DNA of 58,546 nucleotides from a virus, in the IMG/VR virus record IMGVR_UViG_3300032214_001472, positions 1-58,546 of that record; one strand, 5' to 3'. Below, in pieces: positions 1,842-22,909 of this stretch. The notes under the pieces are model-generated. The model was given only the letters and a program-made list of their open reading frames with translations. It did not search any database and was not told where the DNA came from. The number at the start of each line of letters is the position of its first letter. The stretch's first letter is position 1. The position numbers and the translations under genes are program-made.

Positions 1842-4800
1842 ATGGCGAAAAGACTTAGAAACTCTATTAGTTTCACACCATCAACTAATACTGTTGTGAT
1901 TGATGGATATGTTGATAGAAAAACATTACTATTAATCACAAATACTTCATACCAAAATACAATAATTTATAATTTTGCAGATTCTGCAAAAAGAGCAAAT
2001 ACATTAACATATAATTCATCAACTGATAGAACAACGGTTGTTCTTAATTATGATTGCAGTGCGATGAGTTCATCAGACTCTTTGATGATTTTTGTCGAAG
2101 AGTCTGCACTTGCTTTTAAACCTGATGAGTCTTATATTGATCCCGTAGAAAAATTTAGAGTTTCTCAACCACAGGCACTTATCGATACTGACTTTGAATA
2201 TGGAATTCAAGCTTCAAAATGGCAAAGTATTGGTTTGTTAAATAATAGACCATTTTTCTCCCAAAACCCTATTAATTTAGTTGCATTTGGTGCTACGACA
2301 GGAACTGTTGCCGGCGGTGTCGTTGTTTCTGGTATTACTACCATAACAATGCCTGCTGGATCAAGGAGAGTAACAATTGCTTCAACTCAGGCACTGCCCC
2401 CAAATGGAACACCCCTCTCCATTTTGGACGCAAATATACCACATGTAAATGGAAATTGGATTATTGAAGATGGTGGTGGAACTGGAATTGCTACATTTGC
2501 GGTTTCTTTAAGAAACGACACTGGTATTGTTACTTGCATGTCAATTAACAGAACTGGTATCTATAGTGGATCAGTATATACTGGCGCCAGAATTGGATTT
2601 GGAACTGCACTTTCGATGCCTTCGGGTGGATTTTCTACAAGCACCTGGGCAGCAGTAATTAACCCAGGTTTAGCTGTCACAGTTACGACGGCAGTTCCTC
2701 ATGGACTTGTTGTAGGAAACGAAATCGGAGTTACTAGTATTTTCACAGGTCAAAATACCGCATTGGCATTCGGGGCTCAAGGTGGTATTATTGGACAAGC
2801 ATCGCCAAATGGTGTGTATCAAGTTGCCACTGTTGGATCTAGCACACAATTTACATATTATGTAAATACAGCTCCTGTTGGATTAGCGACTACCGCATTT
2901 AGGGATGCAACTGTTTATCCAAGACCATCCGCACAATTCTATCATAGATCATTTGACGGTGGAGTAATTTTTGGAACCTACGGTGAATCAAATTACGAAC
3001 AAGCTGTTCGTCAAACTAGAAGATATTTCCGTTATCAATCTGGTAAAGGAATTCAAATGAGTTCTGGAACTACTTTAAAACCAAACGTTCCTGTTGATAC
3101 AATTTCTGCTTCAGGAACAACGATAACTGTCAGAACTAAAGAAATTCATGGGATTACCAGAGTTATTCCTGGAACACAAATTACTGTTGCTGGATGTAAT
3201 GATTCTGCATATAATGGAACTTTTAATGTAGACTCGGTAACAGGAGAAACTCAATTTACTTATACTGCTCTTAGTGCTCCATCGGAAACAACAGCTACTG
3301 GAAATTATGCGATCAATGTCACAAACTGGTATGGAGCTACTTCTAGACTTGGATTATTTGATTTTCAAAATGGAATGTTCTTTGAATATGACGGTCAAAC
3401 TTTATATGTTGTCCGCAGACAATCAATTTTCCAAATTTCAGGAAGAGTTAGTGTAGCTCAGGAATCGACTCAAGTTACTCAATCTAATCCAAACTTCCCA
3501 ACACTTTTCTCCAAACAACTTGAAGTTGGTGGAAATATTGTAATTCGCGGACAAACCTATAAGGTTATGGATATTCTCAGTGACACTGAGATCAGAATTA
3601 ATCCTGCATATAGAGGTCCAAGTGATCAATATCTAACTGTAACAAAAACAGTTGATTTAAGAATTCCTCAGTCTCAGTGGAACATTGATAGGATGGATGG
3701 AACTGGTTCATCTGGATATAACATCGATCTTTCTAAGATGCAGATGTTCTATATGGATTATTCTTGGTATGGTGCAGGATACATTCGTTGGGGATTTAGA
3801 GCAAGAAATGGAAATGTGATGTATGCCCATAAATTGGTTAACAATAATGTTAACCAAGAAGCATATATGAGATCTGGTAACTTACCAGCTCGTTATGAAA
3901 CTCTAACACATCCAACTACAACTACAATTACTACCAGTTTAGTATCAACAGATAGTTATATCGGTGTTGCATCAACAGCAGGATTCCCAGTTCCAAATGG
4001 TACTGTGTTAGTACGTCAACCTGGAAATGCTCCAGGTGCCGGAGATAGATATGAATATATTAATTACACCGGCGTTGGAACTACAGCTCTTACTGGATGT
4101 ACTAGAGGTAGGGCAGGATATCCATTCGGTCTATCATTAAATATTGGCGCCGGATCTAATATTGGTATTGGATCTACGGCAAATCTCCAGATCGGTCAAA
4201 GAGTAATTTCTGGTGTTGGATCAACATCATTCAAAACAAATACCTTTATTACCAATATCGGAATTGGATCTATTACATTTAGTACTCCATCTTTGGATAA
4301 TAATCCAAATATTATTGTTCCTCCGATGGCAACCACTGCGGGTGTTGCTGGAGCGCAGACTTTTACTTACTCTGCAACAAGACCAACAGCAGTTGAACTG
4401 GCATATCCTACTTTTGCACCAACAATTTCGCATTGGGGTACAAGTGTTATAATGGATGGTAGATATGATGATGATAAATCACTTGTCTTTACATATGGAC
4501 AGTTTAACCCAACTCCTATTCCCGGATTCCAAGAGAGAGGTTTATTCTCAATTAGAGTAGCTCCTTCTGTTGATAGTGGTATTGGTGGAGGATTTGGACA
4601 AAGAGAACTCGTCAATAGAATGCAATTGGTTATGAGAGGACTTGGAATGTCCGTCACAGGTGTTACAACTGCTATTCTTGTTCGTGGATATCTAAATGCT
4701 ACCCCACAATTCCCAACTGTTTGGACTAATGCTGTTGGTAATAGAAGGGTTGGAGATAACTCCAGTCTTGCTCAAATTGCAGACCATACATCTCAAGCAG

Positions 4801-7198: not shown

Positions 7199-7525
7199 AT
7201 GGGGAAGCATTACTTACTTAACCTGTACGGATGCTCGTTTGTCCTTTTGGACGACGAGCGTTGTCTTATAGACTTACTAGAAAACGCAGCAGTTGCAAGT
7301 GGTGCCACTGTGATTCAGACTATCTCAAAGAAGTTTGAACCACAGGGTGTCACTGTTATTTGTTTGCTTTCAGAAAGTCATATCTCAATTCATACCTGGC
7401 CTGAGGAAGGTAAAGCTGCAGTAGATGTCTATACCTGTGGCGATTGCAACCCTAAGATTGGTTGTGACATCATCATTCAACAACTTTATGCTCAGTCTCA
7501 TACTCTGAGTTATATTGAACGATAA
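7199..7525 (+). CDS. speD: S-adenosylmethionine decarboxylase proenzyme
   Basis: 108 residues, the length of bacterial-type class 1B SpeD. The diagnostic segment LLSESHISIHTWPE holds the self-cleavage site before Ser60, which becomes the pyruvoyl cofactor, followed by His61. The CGDCNP motif downstream carries the conserved cysteine. The enzyme makes decarboxylated SAM for spermidine synthesis. It is a known auxiliary metabolic gene of cyanomyoviruses. It lies 4 nt after the previous gene. Confidence 0.95.
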   Translation: MGKHYLLNLYGCSFVLLDDERCLIDLLENAAVASGATVIQTISKKFEPQGVTVICLLSESHISIHTWPEEGKAAVDVYTCGDCNPKIGCDIIIQQLYAQSHTLSYIER

Positions 7526-15758: not shown

Positions 15759-16610
15759 ATGGCTGCTCCAAAGCTAAGAACAGTAGATCAAATAAAGAAA
15801 GCGATACTTAGACCTGCATTAACTTCTCACTATGAGGTTTTTATTTCACCACCTTCTGGTGACTTTTTAACTTATATTGCAAACAATAATGTTAAATGGG
15901 GAATAGAGGATCAAAGTAATATTTTCATGGCATGTTCCGATGCACTTCTTCCAGGCTCCAATTTTGCAACTTCTGAAATAAATGGAGATTATACTGGGGT
16001 TACAGAAAGACATGCGCATAGAAGAGTTTATGATGACAGAATAGATCTTTCATTCTATGTGCAAAATGATGGGAGAAATCCTTATAATGCTATCAAATTC
16101 TTTGAAGCATGGACAAAGTTCATGACAAATGAAAGTATTGCTGGCGGCGATAATAATAATAGCGTTGCAAGCGGACATTTTTATTATCAAATCAAATATC
16201 CAAACGAATATTATGGTGGATTGGAAATTACAAAATTTGAAAGAGATAATTATTCTGAGTTACTGACATATAAATTTGTTAACGTATTTCCTATAAGTAT
16301 TAGTTCCATGCCAATTTCTTACGAATCGGCAAATCTTTTAAAAGTTACAGTATCTTTTTCTTATATTAGATATTATATTACTTCAATGAAAGGACTTGAG
16401 AGAGGAACTGGGGCTGCTAATATAACTACTCTTAGTCCAGAACAAGCAGCTGCGATTAACAATCAGACATTTAATCCAAACTTTAATACTGGACTTAATT
16501 ATGGAAATTATAGTACCACCGGAGGAGTGACAATTCCACAATCGTCATCTTCCGGCAATGCATTCAATATCAACCCCGATTTCGGACGTTCATTCACTCT
16601 GAATAAATAA
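15759..16610 (+). CDS. gp54: Baseplate tail-tube initiator gp54
   Basis: 283 residues. KAILRPALTSHYEVFISPP near the N-terminus and GVTERHAHRRVYDDRIDLSF at about residues 87-106 match cyanophage gp54 and the tube-protein fold shared with gp19. The C-terminal ~60 residues are Asn/Thr/Ser-rich and probably flexible. Gp54 sits on gp48 and seeds polymerisation of the tail tube. It begins a rightward operon that continues into gp26 and the tape-measure-like genes. Confidence 0.85.
   Translation: MAAPKLRTVDQIKKAILRPALTSHYEVFISPPSGDFLTYIANNNVKWGIEDQSNIFMACSDALLPGSNFATSEINGDYTGVTERHAHRRVYDDRIDLSFYVQNDGRNPYNAIKFFEAWTKFMTNESIAGGDNNNSVASGHFYYQIKYPNEYYGGLEITKFERDNYSELLTYKFVNVFPISISSMPISYESANLLKVTVSFSYIRYYITSMKGLERGTGAANITTLSPEQAAAINNQTFNPNFNTGLNYGNYSTTGGVTIPQSSSSGNAFNINPDFGRSFTLNK
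16602..16609 (+). promoter_or_regulatory. Late promoter box AATAAATA
   Basis: Overlaps the end of gp54 and lies 26 nt upstream of gp26; GGGAGA provides a ribosome-binding site between. Confidence 0.5.
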
Positions 16611-16634: not shown

Positions 16635-17354
16635 ATGCCTTTACCAAAGATTGCTACACCGTCTTATGAACTTGAATTGCCATCTACAGGAGAAACAGTT
16701 CAATTCAGACCTTTCTTAGTTAAAGAAGAAAAGCTTCTTGTGATTGCTTTAGAAAGTGAAGACACTAAGCAGATCACAACAGCAATTAAGACTGTCATTA
16801 AAAATTGTATTCTAACAAAAAATATTAAGGTAGAGAATTTGCCTACCTTTGATATTGAATATTTGTTCCTTAATATTCGTGGTAAGTCTGTTGGAGAACA
16901 GATTGAAGTTAATATTATTTGTCCAGATGATAATGTAACTCAAGTTCCTGTTAAAATTGATATTGACTCAATTAAAGTACAAAAGAACGAAGAACATACT
17001 AATCAAATTCGTGTTGATAAAAGCATTATGATGGAGATGAAGTATCCATCATTGGATCAGTTCATCAAATCCAATTTTGATTTTACAAACGAAAATGCAA
17101 TGGATCAATCCTTTGATTTGATTGCCTCTTGTGTTGGTAAAATTTATACTGAAGAAGAAGTATGGACATCCTCTGATGTGTCCAAAAAAGAATTGAGTGA
17201 ATTCCTTGATCAAATGAATTCAACTCAATTTAAAGAGATTGAAAAATTCTTTGAGACTATGCCAAAATTATCCCACAAAATTATGGTAACAAATCCAAAG
17301 ACTAATGTTGAAAGTGAGGTAATTATGGAGGGACTAGCAAGTTTTTTCGCATAG
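16635..17354 (+). CDS. gp26: Baseplate hub/tail-assembly protein gp26
   Basis: 239 residues (T4 gp26 has 208). The conserved N-terminal pattern YELELPSTGETVQFRPFLVK, EEKLLVIALESED and FLNIRGKSVGEQIEV is that of the T4 gp26 baseplate family (PF12322 from memory). In T4 gp26 is needed for hub assembly. The last codons read AGT TTT TTC GCA TAG, a consensus -1 slippery site, and the -1 frame is open into the next small ORF. Position just before tape-measure-like genes and this slippery site both suggest a tail-assembly chaperone of the lambda gpG/gpGT kind. Confidence 0.87.
   Translation: MPLPKIATPSYELELPSTGETVQFRPFLVKEEKLLVIALESEDTKQITTAIKTVIKNCILTKNIKVENLPTFDIEYLFLNIRGKSVGEQIEVNIICPDDNVTQVPVKIDIDSIKVQKNEEHTNQIRVDKSIMMEMKYPSLDQFIKSNFDFTNENAMDQSFDLIASCVGKIYTEEEVWTSSDVSKKELSEFLDQMNSTQFKEIEKFFETMPKLSHKIMVTNPKTNVESEVIMEGLASFFA
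17342..17348 (+). promoter_or_regulatory. Programmed -1 frameshift slippery site T TTT TTC
   Basis: In the gp26 frame the bases are read as xxT TTT TTC, a textbook X XXY YYZ heptamer, two codons before the stop. After a -1 shift translation reads CGC ATA GCC CTA GTC CAT ATG and continues through the next ORF with no stop. A stimulatory pseudoknot or stem was not identified by eye. Confidence 0.75.
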
Positions 17355-17365
17355 CCCTAGTCCAT

Positions 17366-17542
17366 ATGGATCTTGAGAACTATTTTCGTCTTAATTTTTC
17401 CTTGATGCAGTATCATAAATACTCATTGACAGAGATAGAAAATATGATTCCTTGGGAAAGGGACATATATGTTGAGTTGCTAAAGCAACATATTGAGGAA
17501 GAACAGACTAAACAGCAAGCATCCAATGCCCAATTCTTCTAA
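17366..17542 (+). CDS. Small gp51-like ORF, probable frameshift extension of gp26
   Basis: 58 residues from ATG 17366 (MDLENYFRLNFSLMQYHKYS, then LTEIENMIPWERDIYVELLK, ending NAQFF). It lies in the -1 frame relative to gp26, and the frame is open from the slippery site at 17342. The YSLTEIENMIPWE segment resembles the second part of frameshifted tail chaperones, in which a Trp-containing helix follows. Cyanophage maps often place a gp51-like hub-assembly gene here; I cannot confirm homology to T4 gp51. The product may be made alone, as a gp26 fusion, or both. The next gene starts inside its 3' end. Confidence 0.75.
   Translation: MDLENYFRLNFSLMQYHKYSLTEIENMIPWERDIYVELLKQHIEEEQTKQQASNAQFF
17414..17421 (+). 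promoter_or_regulatory. Late promoter box CATAAATA inside the small ORF
   Basis: Matches the relaxed late consensus and would transcribe the tape-measure-like gene that starts 104 nt downstream. Confidence 0.4.
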
Positions 17543-19883
17543 TGTAACAGAAAATATAGATGAAAGAGTTCTAAGGTTATTAGGACTTCAGGATGTTTTC
17601 GACCTAGATTATGATACTTATCTTTTATTATTAAAAGAAGAAATGGTTAAGGGCAGAATGCCCAAGAGTAGAATTCCTACAGAGGAAGTTGAAGTATTAA
17701 CCTCAGAATATAAGAGAGTTAAGAGTAAAAGGGGACTAGGACGTTTTAAAGTAAAGAAAAGAAAAATAAGCACTCAATCTTTTGGAGTTGCAGCAGTAAA
17801 TGTTGTAACCAAAAAAATCAAAAGTGAAAAGCTTCTTCCATCAAAGCAGCAGCAATTATATTTACCTCCAGGGAAATCAGTAACTGGCGAAATATCAAAA
17901 ACAGGATCTTATCTTAATGACATTTCCAAGTCTATTGGAAATATTGTAAAGATTTTAACCACAAATCTTCAAGTTGATAAGAAGAATTCTGAGAAAAGAA
18001 GAATAGAAAAAGAAAAATCTAAAAGAGAAGGAGAAGAATCCAAGTTAGAAAAGGGACTTGGGTTAGTAAAAAAAGCAGTTTCAAAAGTAATTGCTCCAGT
18101 TAAGAATATCTTATCTTCAATTATTGATTTCTTGATGAAGATGTTCTGGGCAAGAGTGACATATAAGCTTTTGGAATGGTTAGCAGATCCTAAGAATCAA
18201 GATAAATTAAAATCTGTTTTTAGATTCTTAGGTGATCACTGGCCCAAACTTCTAAGTCTTTATATAATGTTTGGAACTTCTTTTGGCAAGTTTGCCAGAG
18301 GATTGATTTCTATCGTTGTAAGAGGTGGTGCATTACTTGCTAGAGCTGCTGTAGCTTTATTAGCAAAAGCAGGTATTGGAAAAGCTGGGAAACTTGCGGG
18401 ATTCCTTGGTGGAAAATATGGAAAACTTGCAGTTGCTGGAGTTGAAACAGCAGCTACTGTTGGTGCTACCATGGCTCTCAGTGGTGGCATTGAAAAATTT
18501 ACTGGAATTGGTGGAGATAAAGGAGAAACTGCCAAGTTTGCTGGAGGAGGATTTGCAAATTTTGGATCTTTGTTTAAGGGCGGATCCGAAAATATGTTTG
18601 GATCTCTCAGTGATATGTTTGGATTTAATAAATTTAGACAGCAAACACAAGGATTAATTAGTGGCGAAAAGGGAGTTGATAAAATCCCTGCAATGCTAAG
18701 TGATGGCGAATTTGTCATGTCTCGCGGTGCGGTTCGAAAGTATGGAGTTGATACTCTTGAATCCATGAACGCTGCTGGAGGAGGTACAAATAAACCAAAG
18801 ATCGTTAAAGGTATTCCATATGCAGCTGGTGGTGGTTTAATTGCAAGCAAACCGACTAGAGTTGAAGCAGAAAGAGAATCGAAGTCTGGATTAGTTAAAC
18901 AAAACAGATCTATTGGAGAAACTTCAAGCACTCGGGGTGACTTTAGAAAAACTTATTTTGAAGAGAGATTAAAGAGAATTGAATCTCAACTTCAAGTGCA
19001 AAAGGCACTTGCATCCGGTAGAGGTATTAATATTAAAGGTTCATCATTTGGTATTCAAAGTGGAAGGGGGTTTGGTGCGACTTATGGTGGAAGAAAGTCC
19101 ATTGTTGTTCCAAATGCAGCAATGTCTGGATGGGAACCTGAGATAAACATAGGTGGCATCAGATACTTTGGACAAGCAAGAGGAAAGGATGTAGTTTATT
19201 CCTCAAATTATGCTAAAGGATCATCGGGACAAATTGATAAGTATGGAGCTGCCAATAAAACATATCGTGGCAGAGGTGGTGGACTTGTTGGTGGATTGGG
19301 ACTGAATAGTAAAAAAGATCTCCCCAAAACAAGAATCATGTCAGATGATAATGGGAAAATTTTTGTTGGGCATTTAAGATATCGTAATGGACAACCAGAA
19401 TATGCCAGAGCCCAACAAAGGGAAGGTGGAATTCTTGAAAAAATGGCTAATTTGTTGGATCCAAAAGGTGCAAGGGGAAGAGAAGAAACTCTGAATGCAA
19501 GATCAATGAGAATGACTTCCATTAGTGATCTGCAAGATTACAGAAAAAGAGGTATGGAAGAACAAAATATTAAGAAAATGATGGGAGCAAGATATAATAC
19601 TGCATCAAATGATCTAAAAGCGAGAGAACTTAGAATTAAAAATGAAAGTCAATTATCAAGAACAGCAAGTTATTCTTCAGCAAATATTATTGCAGCACAG
19701 AAAGTATCAAGAGGAGTTAAACCTCTTAATAGAAAATCATCTGTAGTTAGAACTTCAAGTTCAAAAACAAAGAATCCGTTTATGAGTAGTGGATTGCCCA
19801 ATACTCCAAATACGCCTAAGATTTCAGCTTCTCATCCAGCAGGATTTAGAAGCAAAGAAGCTACTCTTGGATTAATGAGGTAA
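17526..19883 (+). CDS. Tape-measure-like tail protein 1
   Basis: 785 residues. ATG 17526 (MPNSSNVTENIDERVLRLLG) is chosen over the upstream 17493 start because the latter lies deep in the previous ORF. A charged helical region with basic runs (residues about 45-180) leads to a long hydrophobic and Ala/Gly-rich stretch (about 180-328: IIDFLMKMFWARV, ARAAVALLAKAG, ATVGATMALSGG). At about 379 comes GVDKIPAMLSDGEFVMSRGA, the C-terminal signature of many phage tape-measure proteins. The gene follows directly after the gp26/frameshift locus, where the tape measure is expected. The final ~400 residues are Gly/Lys/Arg-rich and of unknown fold. Confidence 0.72.
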   Translation: MPNSSNVTENIDERVLRLLGLQDVFDLDYDTYLLLLKEEMVKGRMPKSRIPTEEVEVLTSEYKRVKSKRGLGRFKVKKRKISTQSFGVAAVNVVTKKIKSEKLLPSKQQQLYLPPGKSVTGEISKTGSYLNDISKSIGNIVKILTTNLQVDKKNSEKRRIEKEKSKREGEESKLEKGLGLVKKAVSKVIAPVKNILSSIIDFLMKMFWARVTYKLLEWLADPKNQDKLKSVFRFLGDHWPKLLSLYIMFGTSFGKFARGLISIVVRGGALLARAAVALLAKAGIGKAGKLAGFLGGKYGKLAVAGVETAATVGATMALSGGIEKFTGIGGDKGETAKFAGGGFANFGSLFKGGSENMFGSLSDMFGFNKFRQQTQGLISGEKGVDKIPAMLSDGEFVMSRGAVRKYGVDTLESMNAAGGGTNKPKIVKGIPYAAGGGLIASKPTRVEAERESKSGLVKQNRSIGETSSTRGDFRKTYFEERLKRIESQLQVQKALASGRGINIKGSSFGIQSGRGFGATYGGRKSIVVPNAAMSGWEPEINIGGIRYFGQARGKDVVYSSNYAKGSSGQIDKYGAANKTYRGRGGGLVGGLGLNSKKDLPKTRIMSDDNGKIFVGHLRYRNGQPEYARAQQREGGILEKMANLLDPKGARGREETLNARSMRMTSISDLQDYRKRGMEEQNIKKMMGARYNTASNDLKARELRIKNESQLSRTASYSSANIIAAQKVSRGVKPLNRKSSVVRTSSSKTKNPFMSSGLPNTPNTPKISASHPAGFRSKEATLGLMR

Positions 19884-19888
19884 TATAA

Positions 19889-22800
19889 ATGGCAATTAAT
19901 GTAGGAAAATTATTACCACCATCTAAGTCTGGCAATATTGTTTCTAGAGATATTGCCAAAAGAATGGCATCTCCAGTAGATGATTTTTCTATGGATAAAC
20001 CATCTCTAAATCCAGCAAAAAATCGTCCCAATCAAATATTAGTAATTAGAACTCAAGTTATTAAAATTGAAAATCTTGTTAAAAGAAAATATGTTGAAGA
20101 TACAAAAAAACAAAAGGAAGAAAATAAATCAAAAGAAGAATATAAAAGAAGGAAAAGAGAAGAAAAATTAGAAGAAAAACCAAGAGAAAACGAAAAATTA
20201 CCAAACAATCTTCGACTACCAAAGATTGGATTTTTGGATGGTATTAAAAATTTCATAGTGAATATGATTCTTGGGTTCGTTGCCTTTAGACTCATAGAAT
20301 ATCTCCCAGCAATAGCTAAATTCGCAAAAGTTTTAGCACCTGCTGTTGATTTCTTTATTGATTTTAGTGGCAAGTTGTTGAATGGATTAGTTAGTTTTGT
20401 AGATTGGGGGTATAAAGCTTACGATTCAACTCGTAAACAATTATCTACTTTTGGTGGAGAAAACTTTACTAAAATATTTGATACCTTTAATGGTGCTGTT
20501 GGAAAAGTAATTGAAGCAGCCATTACAACTGCAATTGTATTAGGTAATCAAGGTGATGGTGGAGTCTTTGATATTGGTAGAGATATTGTTAAAGATAGAC
20601 TTCTACAAAAAGGAGCCCAGCAAGCAGCAACTACTGCTGCTGGACAAGCTGCAGGACAGGCATCTGGTATTGGTGCAGGTGCTGCTGGTGCGATTGTTGC
20701 TGGTGCTGGATTGTTGGCATCTGCAATTGGAGAAGGTGCCTTTCAACTTAAAAAACTTGGCAGATCTCAAGAAGAAAAGCAAAGAAAAGCATTTGAAAAA
20801 GAAAAGAATCCTCTGCTGAAGGGAATCCTATGGTTGGGATACCAGCAAGGTAGATTTGGAAACTTCATGCTTGGAAATATTGGAGTTCTTCTTGATATTG
20901 TTGGTGCGCCTTTCCGATATGCCATTGAGTTAATTCGATATCCATTCCTATCAGCAAAGGATAAAGAAAATCAGAAAACAAATCTTGGTAAACTTGATGC
21001 CAGAATTCGTGATCAATTTAGAGAGAATCTGAACAATGTAACCTCAATGTTTGGGGTTCAACTCAAAGAAGGATCCTTTGGTAGTTTGTATGGCAATAAA
21101 GCAACAAACGATATGTATGGCAATAAAATGGCTGGTGGTGGGCAACCAATTACTAGAGGTGGTAGAGTTGTTGGTGGTAGAACTTCAAGGAAATATAAAA
21201 AGCCTACAAGTATAACAAGGCAAATACAAACTCAACCAACAAAATTAAAATCTGGAAAGGATGTTGGGGGAGAAAAGAAGATTGAAAAAGTATTTCCAAA
21301 ATCTCCAAATAAAGATTTTATAAGTCCTCTTGGTTATCTTGAGGAATCTTATGCTACAACTAGCAAAATTCCATTTTTCGGACCCTTATTTGGAATTGCT
21401 ACTAAGGTTATTCTTGGAGAAAAACCAAATTCAGTAGATTATAAGAACGTTGGAGTCGGATTAAATTCTTGGATCAATACTACTTTTAGTGGTGAAGTAT
21501 TAAGAACTGGTGGTGCTTTTGCTGGCGGTGGCGAAGTAAATGCAGAGATGTTTATGAAAGGTGAGGATTTAACAAATGTAATTGCAAAATCAGTTCAAGA
21601 GAGTGTATCATCAAAAATTGATGATACCATTAATGAATTAATGAAGCAATTGATGCTAAAAGAAATTGAAAAAAAATCTGGAGTAGAAGGAAAAGATCAG
21701 CCTACAGGAGAAGGAGATATTTTACAGGGAACAACATCAGGAGAATATGGACCCATTTTAGATTTAATTGCTAGCGTTGAGGCAGTTGGTGGATATGATG
21801 TAGTTAATGGTGGCAAGATAGACGGACTCAGTAAAATGACAATTTCTCAAGCTAGACAAGCTGCATTGAGAAGTGGTGGATCTGGTGCTATGGGAAGATA
21901 TCAACAGATGCCTCAATTTGTTTTGAGTAGAGCAAGATCTGTTGGATTAAATCCAGATACAGATCTCTTTAATGAAGAAAATCAGAATAAATTGGCAATA
22001 CTTTTAATTGATGGTGCTGGTTATAAGAGATGGAAATCTGGTGAAATGAGCACCGAACAGTTTGCTCATAACTTATCAGCAACTTGGAGAGGATTACCAG
22101 AAGGTCCTAGTAATTTGACATATCAGGATCAATACGCTTCTGGAAATAAAGCCCATACCAGCTGGGCAAATGTTATGGCAACTTTAAGTGCGGTAAAGAG
22201 TGGAAAAATATCTGGAGGACAATTGGGTGGAGGTATATTAGGAACTGGAAGACTTAGTGCTGTTGATCAGTTTACTTCAATCGCAAGTAAATTTGGATTA
22301 CAAATGACTAGCGATTACAGATCTGGTGATCGTGGATATCATGGAAAAAACAGGGCAAGAGATTATTCCAATGATACTGTTGGTAATGGAACACCTCAGC
22401 AATTGGCATTCGCAAAACATTTGATATCGACTTATGGTTCTTCTCTAACCCAATTAATTTACACTCCTCTTGGATTTGGTATTGCCAATGGTAAAAAAGT
22501 TCCCCTATCTTATTGGGGCGAAAAAACAAATGCTGGGCATTATAACCATGTTCACGTTGCTCTTGCAAAAGGTGGACTTGTTGGTGGTGTTACTTATGCA
22601 ATGCTTGGTGAAAGAGGTAGAGAATTTGTATTAGATTCTAATACAACAGAGGCATTAAGAGGTTCTCTTCCTGGATTCCTTGAAGCATTGAACTCTGCAA
22701 AAAATGTCTCAGGAGCTTTAGCGGTAATTCAATCATATATGTCATATGATGATGGATCTCCTCAAAACATTATTATTGAAGATGATTCATCTCAAGATAT

Positions 22801-22909
22801 GGACTATCCCTTTATGGGTGGACAAAAACTTGTTCCAATTGCCATGGGTGGTATGGGTGGATCAAGTGGACATGATCATTTTGAAATTCTTGATCGCTTA
22901 CCTGGGTAA
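19889..22909 (+). CDS. Tape-measure-like tail protein 2 with muramidase and M15-like peptidase domains
   Basis: 1006 residues. A highly charged coiled-coil region (about 65-105) is followed by hydrophobic segments at about 113-170 and 250-285. From about 620 to 737 lies a muramidase-type domain (DLIASVEAVGGYDVV, SKMTISQARQA, GSGAMGRYQQMPQFVLSRA) whose first Glu fits the catalytic acid. From about 789 to 893 follows an M15-like zinc peptidase or related domain: GYHGKNRARDYS and GHYNHVHVALAKGG give His-x6-Asp and the HxH pair. A tape-measure C-terminal motif (MLGERGREFVLDSNTT) ends the functional part. Probably a tail protein that cuts peptidoglycan at DNA entry. It lies 5 nt after the first tape-measure-like gene. 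Confidence 0.78.
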   Translation: MAINVGKLLPPSKSGNIVSRDIAKRMASPVDDFSMDKPSLNPAKNRPNQILVIRTQVIKIENLVKRKYVEDTKKQKEENKSKEEYKRRKREEKLEEKPRENEKLPNNLRLPKIGFLDGIKNFIVNMILGFVAFRLIEYLPAIAKFAKVLAPAVDFFIDFSGKLLNGLVSFVDWGYKAYDSTRKQLSTFGGENFTKIFDTFNGAVGKVIEAAITTAIVLGNQGDGGVFDIGRDIVKDRLLQKGAQQAATTAAGQAAGQASGIGAGAAGAIVAGAGLLASAIGEGAFQLKKLGRSQEEKQRKAFEKEKNPLLKGILWLGYQQGRFGNFMLGNIGVLLDIVGAPFRYAIELIRYPFLSAKDKENQKTNLGKLDARIRDQFRENLNNVTSMFGVQLKEGSFGSLYGNKATNDMYGNKMAGGGQPITRGGRVVGGRTSRKYKKPTSITRQIQTQPTKLKSGKDVGGEKKIEKVFPKSPNKDFISPLGYLEESYATTSKIPFFGPLFGIATKVILGEKPNSVDYKNVGVGLNSWINTTFSGEVLRTGGAFAGGGEVNAEMFMKGEDLTNVIAKSVQESVSSKIDDTINELMKQLMLKEIEKKSGVEGKDQPTGEGDILQGTTSGEYGPILDLIASVEAVGGYDVVNGGKIDGLSKMTISQARQAALRSGGSGAMGRYQQMPQFVLSRARSVGLNPDTDLFNEENQNKLAILLIDGAGYKRWKSGEMSTEQFAHNLSATWRGLPEGPSNLTYQDQYASGNKAHTSWANVMATLSAVKSGKISGGQLGGGILGTGRLSAVDQFTSIASKFGLQMTSDYRSGDRGYHGKNRARDYSNDTVGNGTPQQLAFAKHLISTYGSSLTQLIYTPLGFGIANGKKVPLSYWGEKTNAGHYNHVHVALAKGGLVGGVTYAMLGERGREFVLDSNTTEALRGSLPGFLEALNSAKNVSGALAVIQSYMSYDDGSPQNIIIEDDSSQDMDYPFMGGQKLVPIAMGGMGGSSGHDHFEILDRLPG

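Follow-up and report, generated by a model that had tools for sequence, protein, structure and literature searches.

We found that a T4-like cyanophage locus very probably encodes two forms of a tail assembly chaperone of the lambda gpG/gpGT type from a single gene, a short form of 239 aa and a long form of 302 aa made by predicted -1 frameshifting. The locus lies in a 58,546-nt virus fragment (IMG/VR record IMGVR_UViG_3300032214_001472), which is referred to here as the window. In the mechanism that we propose, most ribosomes would stop at the TAG at 17352 and yield the gp26 short form, while a minority would slip one base back on T TTT TTC, aided by an upstream GGAGGG, read past the TAG and extend the protein by a helical domain of 64 residues, yielding a gp26-gp51-like long form. 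By analogy with lambda gpG and gpGT, the role of the short form would be to coat the tape measure protein, to which the long form would bring tail-tube subunits. The sequence, its conservation and its homology to T4 gp26 and gp51 are direct observations, beside which we infer the occurrence of slippage, its rate and, with more strength, the chaperone role. The original prediction, of a lambda-type frameshifted chaperone in a T4-like cyanophage, is thus supported by the conserved heptamer, its phase, the open -1 frame and the gp51-like peptide.

The gp26-like gene occupies 16635-17354 (+ strand), and its 0-frame product is assigned as the short form (TAC-N or gpG-like) from PF12322, phrog_150 and an AF2 model. 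The 3' end of this frame reads AGT TTT TTC GCA TAG, exactly as predicted, with the slippery heptamer T TTT TTC (17342-17348, + strand) in the correct X_XXY_YYZ phase ahead of the stop. Also as predicted, no stop interrupts the -1 frame, which is open from 17318 to a TAA at 17540-17542 and contains a 58-codon ORF (17366-17542, + strand). Gene callers would list this ORF as a separate gp51; its ATG at 17366, 14 nt past the first base of the gp26 stop, is not conserved among relatives. After a slip, the product would begin with gp26 residues 1-238 (...GLASFF) and continue as RIALVHMDLENYF... until the TAA at 17540, such that the extension (17348-17542, + strand) adds a gp51-like T domain of 64 codons plus stop. 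Since an open -1 frame past the stop is by itself common, occurring in 12 of the 35 ORFs that reach 150 aa in the window, what counts as evidence is the heptamer together with its conservation; among these 35 ORFs, only gp26 has an in-phase XXXYYYZ at most 45 nt from the stop within an open -1 frame, which goes beyond chance.

Both products have identifiable relatives. The 0-frame protein matched PF12322 (T4_baseplate) over profile positions 2-219 of 219 (1e-73; 248 bits, compared to a curated cut-off of 24.5) and phrog_150 (baseplate hub; 1.9e-77). The -1 peptide matched phrog_634, "baseplate hub assembly catalyst" (2.8e-29), and this match, together with an alignment to T4 gp51, confirms that the -1 ORF is gp51-like. 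The same peptide also matched the C-terminal end of phrog_150 (positions 232-280 of 282), and thus phrog_150 must include proteins with both parts in one chain. Among relatives, the conserved core of the -1 domain is F...N-F...P-W/F-E. We modeled gp26 and the T domain separately with AF2, obtaining a pLDDT of 87 for gp26 and an all-helical T domain with a pLDDT of 85. A search of a viral structure library with the gp26 model returned T4-type gp26 proteins, and the HK97 tail assembly chaperone gp13 (PDB 2OB9), about half the length of the window gp26, appeared twice among the top six PDB fold neighbors, although not significantly (E 0.7-1.4, probability 0.18-0.35). The fold search with the T domain found no match in the PDB, the PDB sequence search with the gp26 profile gave chance matches only and the NCBIfam search gave no match.

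We compared 145 distinct related loci from GenBank phages and IMG/VR, and in raw locus counts, uncorrected for relatedness, found an in-phase TTTTTTN (as TTTTTTC or the TTTTTTT/A form) 7-13 nt upstream of the gp26 stop in 142 of them, from at least seven lineages, with TTTTTTC at an identical distance in 133 of the 142. Elsewhere within gp26 genes, 0.03% of codon positions have an in-phase TTTTTTN. The carriers include the Kyanoviridae, Aeh1 and AS-yj (Straboviridae), KVP40-type Vibrio phages (including the schizotequatrovirus ValKK3), and Stenotrophomonas, Ochrobactrum, Rhizobium (LG08), Pseudoalteromonas and Desulfovibrio phages. The heptamer is thus shared with lineages in which protein identity to the window is no higher than ~20-35%. 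With Vibrio and Desulfovibrio queries, the IMG/VR scans gave no relatives, and with a Stenotrophomonas query they gave two loci. An alignment across T4-like cyanophages had been proposed as a check; in the comparison across T4-like phages, the heptamer proved to be conserved, as did its phase and the open -1 frame.

The three exceptions to the heptamer are the mutually similar Vibrio phages K469 and K357 and a Stenotrophomonas contig, L097. In K469 and K357 (L014:2902-3905; L190:2899-3855), the gp26 ends read ACG CTT TTT GCG TAA and TCA CTT TTC AAG TAA, the -1 T domain is open and a TAATG joins stop and start; perhaps these phages have switched to reinitiation or to another slip site. L097 is nearly identical to L096, but has five T instead of six in the slip run (~3247-3262), which places its gp26 in a third frame; a homopolymer sequencing error is the likely explanation.

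Codon choice at the slip site is fixed to an extent that its surroundings are not. In all 84 distinct cyanophage loci (again raw counts, uncorrected for relatedness), the Phe-Phe pair is TTT TTC, compared to an overall usage of 73% TTT and 27% TTC in the same genes, and the preceding base is T, whether it belongs to Ser (AGT or TCT), Gly, Asp or Asn. This fixes three successive third positions at which changes would be synonymous, whereas the third positions of the five preceding codons and of the next codon are 32-76% conserved. This uniformity argues against termination-reinitiation at ATG 17366, according to which gp26 and a small gp51 would be separate proteins and the T run merely a codon pair. 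Although we consider it very improbable, reinitiation would fit the short distance between stop and ATG, the stop-start overlaps (TAATG or TGATG) in several relatives (L012, L013, L015) and the two genes annotated in GenBank records. In these records the second gene may start mid-domain (syn9, 7248-7391; RN05-S, only 90 nt), and in those of Aeh1 and AS-yj its annotation is missing. However, the -1 frame is conserved ahead of the ATG: in almost every codon immediately following the heptamer, ahead of any potential start, the first or second base is more conserved than the third, and no stops occur in this frame from the slip site onward across the loci. Moreover, Met is found at the position of ATG 17366 in 82 of 125 cyanophage-type loci and is missing in about a third, and in 27 of the 141 loci with a heptamer and a complete -1 frame, no ATG, GTG or TTG appears in this frame over the first 50 nt or more beyond the stop, so that conserved residues would be cut off. 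Reinitiation also fits poorly with T4 gp51, in which a gp26-like body and the domain form one chain. On the evidence of the sequences, we conclude that the -1 frame is protein-coding as a continuation from the slip site.

If ribosomes do slip at this site, the likely stimulator is a Shine-Dalgarno-like element, GGAGGG (17327-17332, + strand), located 9-10 nt upstream of the heptamer and recognized by its codon bias. In raw locus counts uncorrected for shared ancestry, a Glu-Gly pair ~10 nt upstream of the heptamer uses GAG in 76% (32% background) and GGG in 29% (4% background), with Gly encoded by GGG in 22 of 35 loci in which Glu is GAA, compared to 9 of 91 in which it is GAG (Fisher p 4e-9); the anti-Shine-Dalgarno pairing energy peaks at this spot (-6.97 kcal/mol, compared to -5.45 with synonymous resampling; 0/40 replicates). 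A GAGGG or GAAGGG element ~10 nt upstream looks to be under selection. In E. coli dnaX, -1 frameshifting is stimulated by a Shine-Dalgarno-like element ~10 nt upstream. The mRNA structure downstream of the site had been proposed as a further check, and RNAalifold (pseudoknots being outside its model) found no consensus structure, and hence no conserved downstream hairpin, in any block; the 60 nt downstream of the slip site are only mildly more stable than the gp26 background (-11.6 compared to -8.3 kcal/mol). A stem enclosing the slip site (GGGACTAG/CCTAGTCC) was found in the window only and is not conserved.

The selected-looking upstream element also bears on transcriptional slippage, in which a stuttering polymerase would add a U at the T run with a similar protein outcome. 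We hold this to be very improbable: six consecutive T could in principle make polymerase slip, and L097 has a run of five, though sequencing error would also explain that case, but polymerase slippage needs no Shine-Dalgarno-like element, and this element, the strict T_TTT_TTN phase and, in most loci, a fixed C following the run are ribosomal signatures. A frameshift mutation or sequencing error that broke an original gp26-51 fusion gene, a fused protein being known in T4 (gp51), has a negligible chance and is refuted by conservation, since 142 of 145 distinct loci, drawn from isolates and metagenomes, are interrupted at this one position.

T4 provides a second arrangement of the same two forms to set beside the predicted ribosomal frameshift. 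T4 gp26 and gp51 are classed as hub assembly chaperones, and gp51 is essential, absent from the particle and was of unknown function in 2010 (PMC3004832). T4 gp26 (208 aa) matches phrog_150 from 14 to 235 and ends there, while T4 gp51 (249 aa) matches the whole PF12322 profile and phrog_150 from 13 to 280; thus, the two are paralogues, gp26 corresponding to the short form and gp51 to the long one. When aligned, the end of T4 gp26 (...RGLKEFFELL) coincides exactly with the cyanophage slip site (...EGLASFF), and gp51 combines a complete gp26-like protein with the -1 domain. We found two PF12322 genes in T4, 44RR2.8t and Klebsiella phage KM3, and one in the other 11 of 14 complete or near-complete phage records, with no second PF12322 gene elsewhere in these 11; 10 of the 11 have the heptamer, the exception being K469. 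The window record, a fragment of 58.5 kb, likewise has one PF12322 copy. The two forms are encoded by separate, divergently transcribed genes in T4, but by one gene with a -1 slip site in the window. The gp26/gp51 pair is also divergent in 44RR, Morganella Rgz1 and Aeromonas AhMtk13a. In KM3 (L099:3001-4295), 51 precedes 26 in a tandem pair that overlaps by 4 nt and lies downstream of gp54. On a maximum-likelihood tree, one origin each suffices for the T4-type gp26 proteins and the gp51 proteins, and all frameshift-type proteins fall outside both. The tree, which has several long branches and a root that is not fixed, fits a single duplication that replaced the frameshift. The proposed unification of T4 gp26 and gp51 with the frameshifted pair is therefore supported, the T4 genes being its split and duplicated version. 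We also noted that T4, Aeromonas and Vibrio homologues (L002, L011, L013) have Cys pairs (CxCG/CPxCG) near a C-terminal hairpin, resembling a zinc ribbon, while the cyanophage gp26 proteins are without them and have NPKT instead.

The neighboring genes resemble those of lambda in their order, with a tube-like gene, the gp26/-1 pair and large tape-measure-like genes matching V-G-GT-H. The upstream gene (15759-16610, + strand), in the position of lambda V, is tail-tube-like (gp54/tube family), based on matches to PF23849 Phage_TTP_2 (6.5e-19) and phrog_45 tail tube (3e-28). Downstream, a 785-aa candidate tape measure gene (17526-19883, + strand) matches phrog_35029 (9e-55; function unknown) and, weakly, tape-measure PHROGs (3e-5), and its product has one hydrophobic segment by hydropathy. 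As had been noted, its start overlaps the end of the -1 ORF, since it can begin at ATG 17526, giving an overlap of 17 nt. A second large gene of 1006 aa (19889-22909, + strand) is an alternative candidate, with residues 749-899 matching phrog_9228, tail length tape measure (4.6e-13). We suggest that either of these genes could be the tape measure. Of the placement between tube and tape measure genes that such a chaperone should have, the tube family upstream is seen, while the tape-measure assignment downstream comes from weak PHROG matches. In S-SM2 and RN05-S, the counterparts of the large downstream genes are annotated as transglycosylase or M23 peptidase.

The likeness to lambda gpG/gpGT lies in a short protein with a rare -1 extension, predicted in the window, and in the position between a tail-tube gene and the tape-measure gene, which in the window is a candidate. 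The lambda slip site is G GGA AAG and gpG is ~140 aa, compared to T TTT TTC, the upstream Shine-Dalgarno-like element and the 239-aa short form in the window; the likeness is one of architecture. Another parallel in locus description is the tail assembly chaperone (TAC) locus of the myovirus Adele (Vandenendeviridae/Andersonviridae), for which a -1 slip at a T-rich site is reported immediately ahead of the tape-measure gene; its motif is GTTTTT, unlike the T TTT TTC of the window (PMC12846349).

TAC genes have been identified in T4-like phages (Vladimirov, Gautam & Davidson 2022, Virology 566:9-15, as cited in PMC10885494 and PMC12846349). According to the two citing papers, these TACs have short and long forms, in some phages as a short gene plus a longer fusion gene, and the Adele paper (PMC12846349) attributes to the 2022 work poly-T slip sites in the TAC-N genes of some T4-like phages. 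We infer that the pair in question is gp26/gp51. Since the title of the 2022 study and the two citing papers cover the central claim, a frameshifted T4-like chaperone appears from these sources to be known already, and the unification with lambda gpG/gpGT, whose newness the original prediction had implied, was already the subject of that study. In searchable papers, we did not find a description of the Shine-Dalgarno-driven mechanism or its element, nor of the K469 exception and the K469/K357 route, although this is not proof of newness. A tentative reading, which we regard as rather doubtful, is that T4-like phages reach a two-form chaperone by three routes: a widespread frameshift on T TTT TTC with a dnaX-style Shine-Dalgarno element, as in the window; the gp26/gp51 duplication of the T4 group; and heptamer loss in Vibrio K469 and K357, in which the T domain is possibly a free protein made from the TAATG overlap.

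These results place two T4 tail factors, long taken as separate proteins of the baseplate hub, within the general system of phage tail assembly chaperones, and would mean that many GenBank cyanophage records list part of one protein as a separate gene. Their value lies in an independent, quantitative confirmation in marine phages and in a concrete prediction of what may stimulate the slip.
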